In this document: one piece after another, positions 29,144-59,164 of the stretch
Layout: each line of letters opens with the position of its first letter
Position numbering within the stretch: the first letter of the stretch is position 1
From: a bacterium
GTDB lineage: Bacteria; Armatimonadota; JACIXR01
Assembly (NCBI GenBank): GCA_014360495.1
Contig: JACIXR010000002.1
Coordinates: 1 to 64,000 of the forward strand
Reading direction: 5' to 3'
Length of the DNA: 64,000 nucleotides
Notes under the pieces: model-generated
What the model was told of the DNA's origin: nothing
What the model saw: the letters and a program-made list of their open reading frames with translations, nothing else
The model's database searches: none
Made by a program: the position numbers and the translations under genes

Positions 29144-29172
29144 TTGCAAATTTTTGCGAAATGTTATATAAT
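29144..29172 (+). promoter_or_regulatory. TTGCAA-type promoter
   Basis: TTGCAA (29144-29149), 17 bp, TATAAT (29167-29172). Start expected near 29179, followed by GGAGGGG and ATG 29202. It lies 5 bases behind the DUF362 stop, so the next gene is a new unit. Confidence 0.7.
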
Positions 29173-29201: not shown

Positions 29202-30221
29202 ATGCCGAAAAATAGAATTATCTGCTTTGTGATTTCGGTCTTTTTAGCTCTGGGAATTGCTCTTCCCCAGGAGCTGCTAATTTTCAATGGGCAACCACTT
29301 AGCGAGCTCAAGATACAGGCTGGCGGTTGGGGCAGTGGGACTTTGGCTGAATCCAAGGACATAATATATCAAGGCACCTTTTCCCTAAAGCTCATATCCT
29401 ACAACTATTATGAGGGAGGAAGACTTGATTTCTCCACTCCCTTGGACCTTAGCTCGTATCTCAAAAATCCCTTCGCCTTCCTGCGCTTCCGTATCTTCCC
29501 AACCACATCGCCTGCAGCTACCCCATTCCCAGGCGCTGGTGGCTTTATGCCCGGTGGAGGAGCGTTTGGACCAGGAGGAATGTTCGTTGCCCCTCCTGGC
29601 GGTCTCGGAGGAATGCCCGGCGGTGCACCGGGAATGCCCGGCGGTGCACCGGGGATGCCCGGCGGCGCACCAGGAATGCCCGGCGGTATGCAGTTCCCAG
29701 GTGGAACATATCCTTCGGTATATCAACTGAAGAGCTTCCGCATAGTCCTAATCTGCGAGGATGGTCTTTTGGTATCGGAGGATTTCCCCTTTGAAATGCA
29801 GATAGTTATGGGAGAGAGATTCTATTCCGTTGCCATCCCTTTCAACACCTTTAAGGGAAACGGCAACGGAAGAGTCAAAAGGATGCTCATCTTCACAAAC
29901 TCTCCTCAAACAATATACATTGGGCAGATCAGCGTAATCGTTGACGACACCCCTATCACGGTCGTCGTCCCCTCAAAAAGCATTGCGGCGAGGGTCAATA
30001 CTTATGTTCAGTTCTCCGCTTTTGCCAGAGCGGGAGTTTCCAGCCTTCGCTATACTTGGGATTTTGATGACTCCAATGGAATTCAAGAAGAAGCAATAGG
30101 CAGAACCGTCCTCCACAGCTTCACCAAAACAGGCACTTTTAATGTCACCGTAACAGTGAGCGACCTTGCGGGCGTTAAAAAGCCCGTTCAAGAAAAAATC
30201 AAAGTGGAGGTACTGAGATAA
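29202..30221 (+). CDS. Exported PKD-domain protein with Gly-Met-Pro-Gly-Gly-Ala-Pro repeats
   Basis: A 339-residue protein with a signal peptide (IICFVISVFLALGIALP). Residues about 25-100 and 165-250 look like one beta-sandwich interrupted by a low-complexity loop. That loop (about 105-165) is rich in Gly, Pro and Met and holds four heptads of GMPGGAP type. The C terminus is a PKD domain (YVQFSAFARAG, YTWDFDDSNG, VLHSFTKTGTFNVTVTVSD). A secreted or surface carbohydrate- or protein-binding role is likely. Own promoter upstream; yebC follows after 14 bases. Confidence 0.8.
   Translation: MPKNRIICFVISVFLALGIALPQELLIFNGQPLSELKIQAGGWGSGTLAESKDIIYQGTFSLKLISYNYYEGGRLDFSTPLDLSSYLKNPFAFLRFRIFPTTSPAATPFPGAGGFMPGGGAFGPGGMFVAPPGGLGGMPGGAPGMPGGAPGMPGGAPGMPGGMQFPGGTYPSVYQLKSFRIVLICEDGLLVSEDFPFEMQIVMGERFYSVAIPFNTFKGNGNGRVKRMLIFTNSPQTIYIGQISVIVDDTPITVVVPSKSIAARVNTYVQFSAFARAGVSSLRYTWDFDDSNGIQEEAIGRTVLHSFTKTGTFNVTVTVSDLAGVKKPVQEKIKVEVLR
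29610..29687 (+). repeat. 21-bp tandem repeat, about 3.7 copies
   Basis: Unit GGAATGCCCGGCGGTGCACC plus G at 29610, 29631, 29652 and 29673 (partial), encoding Gly-Met-Pro-Gly-Gly-Ala-Pro. Copies 1 and 2 are identical, so the array is probably young and length-variable. Confidence 0.85.
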
Positions 30222-55854: not shown

Positions 55855-57726
55855 TTAAACGTTCTGGGCTACCCTCTGCTTAGTGAAACACTCTATTATA
55901 TCGCCTTCTTGGAAATCTTTAAAGTCCTCTAAAAGGACACCACATTCAAATCCCTCTGCCACCTCCCGCACATCGTTTTTGAACCTTCTCAAGGAACTCA
56001 ACTCTCCCTCGTGAATAACAGCCTCCCCTCGCCAAACCCTCACCATTTCCCCTCTCACCAGCTTTCCTTCCCTAACATAGCAACCCGCCGCTACCTTACC
56101 GTCTGGCAAGCGGAAAAGCGCTCTTACCTCCGCCTTCCCCAGCGATACCTCCATCTCCACTGGGGTCAAAAGACCGAGCAAAGCAGCTCTCACTTCATCT
56201 ATTAGCTCATAAATTATCTTGTAAACCCTAACATCCACCTTCTCGCGCTCGGCAGCTTTCCTTGCCTTCGCATCCGCCTTACAACCGAAACCAATGACTA
56301 TCGCATTCGCCACCGAGGCGAGAAGCACATCGCTTTCCGAGATGTTTCCGATGCCGCTATGAATGATGTTTATCTTCGCTTCCTCCTGCTTCAAAGATTC
56401 AAGGGCTTGCTTTACTGCTTCCAAAGCACCTTGGGAATTTGCCTTTATCACGAGGCGGAGCTCCTTCTCTTCCTCCCTTTGAAGGCTTTCATAAAGGGTA
56501 TCCAAGCTCACCCTTCGCACGGGGGCAACCGCAGCGGCTTCCTTCTCTTCCCTTCTCGCCTCGGCTATCTCTTTTGCCTCCCTTTCCGAATCCATTACCT
56601 CAAATTTATCTCCCGCTTCAGGTAGGTCGTTCAGCCCCATTATCTCAACCGGTGTAGAGGGTGGAGCCTCCTTCAATTGCTTTCCCCACTCATTGAACAT
56701 CGCCCTTACCCTCCCATAAGTGCTGCCAGCGACTATAGGGTCTCCTACCCTTAGGGTTCCGTCCTGCACAATAACGGTTGCAATCGGTCCCCTTGCCGGG
56801 TCAAGGCGGGATTCTATTACCGTTCCCTTTGCTTTTGCCCTCGGGTTCGCCCGAAGCTCTTTTATCTCAGCAAGAAGAAGAAGCATCTCCAAAAGCTCGT
56901 CAAGCCCCTCTCTCCTCAAAGCGGAGATTGGGACACATATCGTATCACCACCCCATTCCTCGGGAATCAACCCCACCTCCGCCAATTGCCTCTTCACCAA
57001 ATCAACATTCGCATCCGGTTTGTCTATCTTATTTATGGCAACGAGTATCGGGACATTGGCTGCCCTTGCGTGATTAATAGCCTCAATCGTTTGCGGCATA
57101 ACTCCGTCATCCGCTGCAACCACCAAAACCGCGATATCCGTTACCTGTGCCCCCCTCGCCCTCATAGCGGTGAAAGCCTCGTGTCCGGGCGTATCTATGA
57201 ATGTTATTTTCTTTCCGTCAACCTCTACCTGATAGGCACCGATCTTTTGAGTGATACCTCCCGCCTCCGAATCCGCCACCTTAGTCTCCCTTATAGCGTC
57301 AAGCAAGGTGGTTTTACCATGGTCAACATGCCCAAGGACGGTTACGACGGGCGGGCGAGGCTGTCCCACTTCCTTCTTCTCTTCAACCTCTTTCTCTTCC
57401 TCCAAAATGACTATGAAGCCCCTCTCCCTTGCCAACCTCCTGGCAAGGTCTAAGTCTATGACTTGATTCAGATTAAGGGGCACCCCCGCCTCAAGCAAAT
57501 CGGTCAGGAGAGATGTGGGGGCAATGGAGAGCTTATCCGCGAATTCCTTGACAGTAGTGTTGGGAGTAATAGGAAGAGCTCTTTCCTTTATGAACTCCTT
57601 TATAAGCTCTACTTCCTCTTCGCCCAAGGAATCAGGCGAGAGAGAAAGCTGCTCCACTGACCAGAGGATGCTATCCTCGTCAACCTTCATTTCCTTAGCT
57701 AATTTCTTTACTATATCACTTGCCAA
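55855..57726 (-). CDS. infB: Translation initiation factor IF-2
   Basis: A 623-residue GTPase that places fMet-tRNA on the 30S subunit. The N-terminal IF2N part (about 1-110) is short. The G domain has [33 protein letters not shown] and [11 protein letters not shown]; domains II-IV follow with [14 protein letters not shown] and GAVEAL-type repeats. The C-terminal fMet-binding domain ends [19 protein letters not shown]. It overlaps ylxR by 11 bases. ylxQ, often found between ylxR and infB, is missing. Confidence 0.97.
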
Positions 57727-57979
57727 TTGACATCACCTCAATCTCTTTAAGGAGCCGCTGAGAGATAGAAGGGGGTATTTCGCCCTTTATCTTCAAAGCT
57801 TTTGCCAGTCTATCCCCTTTAAGCGCCCTCTTAATGCACTCATCGTTATAGCATACATATGCACCTCTCCCTTCCCTTATACCTACCTCTATTCTTCCCT
57901 CCTTCGTCCTGCCAATCCTGATAAGGGCGCTCTTGGGGAATTTTTTACCACAGCCTATACAGGTTCTAATCGGCTCCAT
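57716..57979 (-). CDS. ylxR: YlxR family RNA-binding protein
   Basis: An 87-residue protein with RTCIGCGKKFPKSALIRI and GRGAYVCYNDECIKRALKG, the YlxR signature with paired cysteines. It is a small RNA-binding factor always near nusA and infB. It overlaps nusA by 14 bases and infB by 11. Confidence 0.93.
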   Translation of the reverse strand: MEPIRTCIGCGKKFPKSALIRIGRTKEGRIEVGIREGRGAYVCYNDECIKRALKGDRLAKALKIKGEIPPSISQRLLKEIEVMSIGK

Positions 57980-59051
57980 TTGTTTCCTCCCTCGCAGGAA
58001 TCTCCACCTTCTCTATCTCTTCCCTTTCCTCGCTTCTTATATCAATGTGCCAGCCAATTAACTTAACCGCTAATCTCACATTTTGTCCCTCTCTCCCGAT
58101 AGCTAAGGAAAGATGTTCCTCGGGAACGACTACGAGAGCCCTTTTTTCCTCCTCAAAAAGATATACCTCTTTCACCTTTGCTGGGCTTAGGGCATTCGCT
58201 ATATATTCCCTCATATCGGGGCTCCAGCGAACCAAATCTATCTTCTCGCCCCTCAACTCATTCACCACCGATTGAACTCTCGCCCCTCTCGGTCCAACAC
58301 AGGTTCCAATGGGGTCAACACGGGGGTTTTTGGAGTATATGGCTAACTTTGTGCGGGAGCCCGGCTCCCTTGCTATCCCCTTTATCTCCACGATTCCCGC
58401 CGCTATCTCGGGAACCTCTATTTCAAATAACCCTTTAACTAAATTGGGATGGGAACGAGAGACAACGAGCCTGAGCCCCCTTGAGGTCTCCTCTGTCCTG
58501 AGGACATACACCTTAAATCTATCGTTTGGATGATAGTGCTCACGGGGAACCTGTTCTCCGGGAGGGAGAATAGCCTCAGCTCTTCCCACCCTCATATGCA
58601 CGACCTTGCCGTCCCTTCGCAAGACGATGCCGGTTGTTACCTTCTCCAGATAACGAGCGCATTCCTCCCTTACAAGGCGATTCTCCACCTCCCTTATCCT
58701 TTGTAGAAGGACATTTTTCGCCGTCTGAGCCGCTATCCTGCCGAACTCCTTCGGCGTAACATTTATCTCTATGACCTCTCCTATCCTCGCATTTGGCTTT
58801 ATCTTCCTTGCTTCCTCAAGGGATATCTCAATGGACTTATCAGTTGCTTTCTCCACAACGATTTTATGAGTAAAGATTTTCACCCCAGCGGTGTTAAAAT
58901 CAATCTCCACACGGAGATTGCCCTCCTCTCCACAGTGCTTGTGGTAAGCACGGATGATTGCCTGCTTTATGATATCCACAAGCACCTCACGAGGGAGGTT
59001 TCTCTCCTTCTCCAATTCTCTGACTGCTCTAAGAAGTTCTTCTACCTGCAT
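57966..59051 (-). CDS. nusA: Transcription termination/antitermination protein NusA
   Basis: A 361-residue NusA of the short type (no C-terminal acidic repeats). The N-terminal RNA polymerase-binding domain is followed by the S1 domain (GIVLRRDGKVVHMRVGRAEAILP) and two KH domains (DPIGTCVGPRGARVQSVVNEL; EEHLSLAIGREGQNVRLAVKLIGW). AAAGGAAAG precedes the ATG. It is the first gene of its operon; rimP, the usual upstream neighbour, is absent. Promoter and a hairpin in the leader are at 59076-59141. Confidence 0.96.
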   Translation of the reverse strand: MQVEELLRAVRELEKERNLPREVLVDIIKQAIIRAYHKHCGEEGNLRVEIDFNTAGVKIFTHKIVVEKATDKSIEISLEEARKIKPNARIGEVIEINVTPKEFGRIAAQTAKNVLLQRIREVENRLVREECARYLEKVTTGIVLRRDGKVVHMRVGRAEAILPPGEQVPREHYHPNDRFKVYVLRTEETSRGLRLVVSRSHPNLVKGLFEIEVPEIAAGIVEIKGIAREPGSRTKLAIYSKNPRVDPIGTCVGPRGARVQSVVNELRGEKIDLVRWSPDMREYIANALSPAKVKEVYLFEEEKRALVVVPEEHLSLAIGREGQNVRLAVKLIGWHIDIRSEEREEIEKVEIPAREETNGAD

Positions 59052-59112: not shown

Positions 59113-59141
59113 ATTATAACCCTTTTTAAATTTTATTGCAA
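59113..59141 (-). promoter_or_regulatory. nusA operon promoter (shares its -35)
   Basis: On the minus strand: TTGCAA (59141-59136), 17 bp, TATAAT (59118-59113). The -35 hexamer is the same six base pairs used by the divergent promoter at 59136-59164. Confidence 0.75.
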
Positions 59142-59164
59142 ATTTCTCGGTTTTATTGTATAAT
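59136..59164 (+). promoter_or_regulatory. Promoter of the zinc-ribbon membrane protein (shares its -35)
   Basis: TTGCAA (59136-59141), 17 bp, TATAAT (59159-59164). Start near 59171, followed by GGAGGGTGA and ATG 59185. TTGCAA is its own reverse complement, so the two divergent promoters are mirror images. Confidence 0.75.

Follow-up and report, generated by a model that had tools for sequence, protein, structure and literature searches.

The gap between nusA and a divergently transcribed zinc-ribbon gene in the genome of an uncultured Armatimonadota bacterium (GTDB lineage JACIXR01; assembly GCA_014360495.1) probably holds two back-to-back sigma-70-type promoters built on a single -35 hexamer, which would compete and set a transcript ratio and would not form a bistable switch. 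Sequence, geometry, conservation and recurrence are the observations from which we infer promoter activity, transcription starts, polymerase exclusion and the size of that exclusion.

A candidate shared -35 hexamer between nusA and a zinc-ribbon gene

The locus lies near the end of the window, the whole 64,000-nucleotide stretch of contig JACIXR010000002.1 that we analysed. A gap of 133 bp separates the two genes and contains, in order, ATTATA, 17 bp, TTGCAA, 17 bp and TATAAT (Table 1). A first-pass annotation had described this arrangement as a palindromic TTGCAA with TATAAT 17 bp away on each side, in mirror image, and its coordinates, spacers and palindromy are exact to the base.

The two -10 sequences are separate hexamers 40 bp apart. 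Both sides have the form of a sigma-70-type promoter (TATAAT-like -10, TTG-type -35 at 16-18 bp); on the zinc-ribbon side the spacer is N17 throughout the three congeneric species compared, and on the nusA side it is N16 in the relatives. TTGCAA-N17-TATAAT matches the consensus at 10 of 12 positions on each side, and the shared TTGCAA matches TTGACA at 4 of 6 positions in either direction. The same six bases are the -35 hexamer of both predicted promoters, which places the pair among overlapping divergent promoters, in which polymerases would exclude one another. Scanning the gap revealed no rival promoter-like site of comparable score for nusA or the zinc-ribbon gene.

Across the whole window, chance would yield 0.01 occurrences of the 52-bp mirror pattern with at most three mismatches. 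We shuffled the 133-bp gap 100,000 times while preserving dinucleotides; none of the shuffles produced the exact arrangement, with spacers of 16-18 bp, and one produced a relaxed arrangement (TATNNT on both sides). Genome-wide, a relaxed pattern that admits any TTG hexamer is found at two places: this locus and C12:12016-12065, which has the same shape with TTGACT and is not between divergent genes.

Table 1. Positions of promoter elements, genes and the leader hairpin at the nusA/zinc-ribbon locus, and of members of a 23-site viral family
Feature	Position	Strand	Remarks
infB (IF-2)	55855..57726	-	Pfam IF-2 1.3e-37
ylxR	57716..57979	-	Pfam YlxR 5.6e-20
nusA, 361 aa, heads leftward operon	57966..59051	-	Pfam NusA_N 1.6e-38 and KH_5; TIGR01953
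Terminator-like hairpin AAGAGTGGG-AAATAC-CCCACTCTT, then CTTATTTAAA	59076..59099	-	near 5' end of predicted nusA leader
nusA-side -10 hexamer TATAAT (ATTATA on + strand)	59113..59118	-	spacer 17 bp here
nusA-side spacer, A/T-rich	59119..59135		10/17 columns invariant
Palindromic -35 hexamer TTGCAA, common to both predicted promoters	59136..59141		invariant in 3 species
Rightward spacer	59142..59158		5/17 columns invariant
Zinc-ribbon-side -10 hexamer TATAAT	59159..59164	+	spacer 17 bp in all three species
Zinc-ribbon, probably membrane, protein, 246 aa	59185..59922	+	ATG 59185; Shine-Dalgarno GGAGGG upstream
Viral family member, L186	8555-8606
Viral family member, L402	2933-2984
Viral family member, L174	3134-3185

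Conservation within the genus

We compared the source species with two congeners; the next relatives share only the phylum. In both congeners nusA and the zinc-ribbon gene stay divergent across a gap of 132 bp, with NusA 76-78% identical and the zinc-ribbon orthologues 71-72% identical. TTGCAA and both -10 hexamers are identical in all three species, and both -10s hold a conserved placement relative to the two start codons in the two congeners. No invariant run of 5 bp or longer occurs in the gap apart from those at the three elements, which measure 8, 9 and 6 bp; the 9-bp run that encloses TTGCAA is TATTGCAAA. Every element column is invariant (18 of 18), versus 44 of 115 columns elsewhere in the gap (Fisher P=2e-7; three species), in an alignment that, as those 44 columns indicate, is not saturated at all sites. 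Because the elements are the only long invariant blocks, the gap is best read as having one -35 that serves both the nusA operon and the zinc-ribbon gene, and the earlier proposal of a -35 common to two divergent promoters gains support from the invariant blocks of the three sequences.

In both relatives the spacer on the nusA side measures 16 bp, which is where the 1-bp difference in gap length falls. The first-pass annotation had pointed to relatives as a check on its mirror, asking for conservation of the hexamer and of both 17-bp spacers and taking lost symmetry between genes that remain divergent as evidence against it. TTGCAA and the zinc-ribbon-side 17 bp are kept and the nusA-side spacer is not, a loss that tells against the exact mirror and not against the shared hexamer. 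The relatives being 16/17, a conserved 17/17 symmetry is ruled out; the conserved feature is the shared -35, and the perfect mirror is limited to the source species among the three. The 16-bp nusA side of the relatives could alternatively be read as TTTGCA plus 17 bp, giving hexamers that overlap and are not identical. Conservation and the gap shuffles together rule out a chance origin in A/T-rich DNA.

TTGCAA among the promoters of the genome

Within 464 kb of sampled genome sequence, 44 TTG hexamers precede TATAAT at a distance of 16-18 bp, against an expectation of 22.6 derived from other spacings (P=4e-5). In this sample TTGACA is the most frequent -35 and TTGCAA is joint second; TTGCAA at 17 bp occurs four times, twice at the nusA/zinc-ribbon locus. 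Many of the TTG/TATAAT sites lie ahead of Shine-Dalgarno sequences and start codons. These sequence patterns fit a genome that uses ordinary sigma-70-type promoters, with TTGCAA among their likely -35s.

In the window, TTGCAA is also used as a one-directional -35 at 29144-29172, where TTGCAA-N17-TATAAT stands ahead of an ORF at 29202. On the other side of that hexamer, at 17 bp, there is a weak TATTAG, antisense to the preceding gene.

Proposed mechanism

TTGCAA is the sole self-complementary hexamer that starts with TTG, so a fully shared -35 must be TTGCAA. Because the hexamer is self-complementary, sigma region 4 could read it either way. In the proposed mechanism, sigma region 4 would bind TTGCAA in either orientation, and the orientation would fix which TATAAT, 16-17 bp off, opens. 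Each spacer would at the same time be upstream DNA of the opposite promoter: judging from position, the nusA-side spacer may provide the rightward promoter with its upstream (alpha-CTD) region, and the nusA-side promoter may have its own upstream region in the rightward spacer.

Overlapping footprints leave room for one polymerase only. A single holoenzyme would occupy the site at any time, and initiation at the nusA operon and at the zinc-ribbon gene would compete for that reason. The transcript ratio would be set by the relative strength of the two promoters, with real interference just when one side fires often. That polymerase would bind only one way at a time, as the first reading had held, follows from the footprint overlap, a point also made for the pLS20 promoters Pc and Pr (PMC4207663).

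Recurrence in the phylum and in viral contigs

The exact pattern is present in 5 of 291 phylum genomes, at three independent places. These are the three species of the genus at the nusA/zinc-ribbon locus and two further sites, L087 and L088, in unrelated places and each between divergent genes. By eye, the genes flanking L087 are nucleotidyltransferase-like and glycosyltransferase-like. A reversed-pattern control gave 0 throughout the 291-genome survey.

The offset form TTGNCAA allows a closer match to consensus whichever way it is read. We found it in four further phylum genomes; two of these sites are clearly divergent (L209 and L210), L211 is not divergent, and L212 was not counted as clearly divergent. 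At L210 (36-172), the divergent pair consists of a tRNA-Val(GAC) gene and an ORF, whose -35s overlap as TTGTCAA.

Among viral contigs, we identified 98 stretches with TTGCAA in the 17/17 geometry, versus 52 and 61 in controls that pool nine wrong-spacing combinations each, and versus 19 and 34 where other palindromes were used in nine combinations. A count of 45 non-redundant viral sites was set aside as too high, since 23 related sites of one family contribute to it. Clustering leaves 21 independent sites, versus 4.6 per spacing-control combination (P=2e-8), an enrichment of the shared-hexamer geometry of about 4-5-fold. Divergent junctions hold 8 of the 21 clustered sites and 9 of 120 control sites (P=7e-4), counts that rest on crude open-frame gene calls. 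Proteins encoded beside viral sites of the 17/17 geometry are mainly endonucleases and transposases, with few repressor-like matches.

Sites of the 23-member family have the order Shine-Dalgarno(-like) sequence, -10, 17 bp, TTGCAA, 17 bp, -10, Shine-Dalgarno(-like) sequence (members in Table 1). The adjoining genes include transposases and HNH or homing endonucleases. The family is apparently a compact bidirectional promoter cassette.

Flanking genes and the nusA leader

The leftward operon, an essential one for gene expression, has the order nusA-ylxR-infB-ylxP-rbfA, with ylxP assigned from position only. The usual head gene of a nusA operon is rimP. RimP_N (Pfam accession PF02576) had no match in 52 of the 61 phylum genomes searched (G000, G001, G002 and 49 others), in a search to which 10 of 14 control genomes respond. 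rimP thus appears absent or unrecognisable in most of the phylum. On the other side of the gap, Pfam and NCBIfam gave no match for the zinc-ribbon protein, in which N-terminal CxxC pairs and a single hydrophobic segment can be recognised by eye.

Transcription is predicted to start at ~59105 for nusA and at ~59171 for the zinc-ribbon gene, ~66 bp apart and pointing outward. The zinc-ribbon leader would be ~14 nt, beginning beside its Shine-Dalgarno sequence, and the nusA leader ~54 nt. The terminator-like hairpin in the nusA leader has a 9-bp stem that lies a few bases past the predicted start and is followed by CUUAUUUAAA. Both congeners keep the hairpin, with one compensatory change, G-C to A-U, in G002. 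It may stabilise the 5' end or act as a weak attenuator that responds to NusA.

Related promoter systems and alternative readings

Both polymerase exclusion and divergent promoters that overlap have been described before. In a limited literature search we did not find the variant with a perfectly shared palindromic -35, which is weak evidence that it is undescribed. The first-pass annotation knew of no described example of this exact geometry, and this holds for the literature searched, but the arrangement is found again in other genomes and many viral contigs.

The bidirectional promoters of Warman, Grainger and co-workers resemble the nusA/zinc-ribbon arrangement in having a symmetric core element that is read in two orientations and in allowing one binding event at a time, as we predict here (PMC12825309, PMC10268837). 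They share a near-symmetric -10, whereas here the -35 is shared and the -10s are separate consensus hexamers, so the locus is not of the shared -10 type. Their divergent starts lie 7-25 bp apart around the one -10 (PMC10268837), most often 18 bp, in contrast to the ~66 bp predicted here.

At ddrR/umuDAb of Acinetobacter, promoters also stand back to back with their -35s together in mid-gap (PMC7273328). Those -35s are adjacent, overlap the inverted repeat of a repressor and are co-repressed, whereas here there is one shared palindrome. The Acinetobacter case lends some weight to the idea that TTGCAA is the palindromic operator of a dimeric regulator between weak or absent -35s, with the two genes co-regulated and not competing. 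A conserved palindrome midway between two -10s occupies the classic place of an operator, and the invariant run is slightly longer than the hexamer. That run is nevertheless short for an operator and its flanks are asymmetric; TTGCAA stands at -35 distance (16-17 bp) from both -10s, a distance enriched in viral contigs, and elsewhere in the window it also stands as the -35 of a gene without a divergent partner. We regard an operator as unlikely; it is compatible with a shared -35, and the two are not mutually exclusive.

A genuine switch, in which transcription of the nusA operon would silence the zinc-ribbon gene and vice versa, seems to us quite improbable. The first-pass annotation had called the arrangement a built-in switch, for which we find no support: exclusion alone gives competition, and we found neither an adjacent regulator gene nor, among the conserved blocks of the gap, an operator-like repeat other than TTGCAA. 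The pLS20 promoters Pc and Pr, where polymerase exclusion can contribute to switching, likewise overlap, diverge and accept one polymerase at a time, as is predicted here (PMC4207663). There, each -10 coincides with the -35 of the other promoter (the authors' favoured reading), one promoter is weak and regulator-dependent, and the switch is made by the regulator Rco and DNA looping; we see none of these at the nusA/zinc-ribbon locus. Switching of that kind needs very unequal promoters and an oppositely acting regulator (PMC4207663), whereas here each -10 is a consensus hexamer, the -35 is common to both sides and the neighbouring genes include no regulator. At shared -10 promoters, competition is negligible at basal activity, too low to matter in 5 of 5 tested, and matters once one direction is strongly activated, when the other can be repressed (PMC12825309). 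The scarcity of repressor-like matches beside the viral sites, with their endonucleases and transposases, also argues against a switch.

That just one promoter works, the other -10 being an A/T-rich coincidence and its gene read from elsewhere, would suit a gap of 70% A+T and a -35 with just 4/6 matches per side, and is very improbable given that all three species have both TATAATs unchanged and at constant distances from the start codons, that just 478 of 100,000 gap shuffles hold a divergent TATAAT pair of any kind, and that the gap has no other promoter-like site of comparable score.

Implications

We tentatively suggest that promoters with a perfectly shared palindromic -35 form a distinct, recurrent class of bidirectional promoter, cellular and widely phage, in which the direction of polymerase binding would set a transcript ratio and which here would link nusA-infB to the zinc-ribbon protein. 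A shared -35 raises the question of how polymerase picks between two equal -10s. The locus offers a symmetric natural test piece, in which a single base change should tip the balance, and, to judge from the viral survey, the design occurs often enough to be studied as a class.
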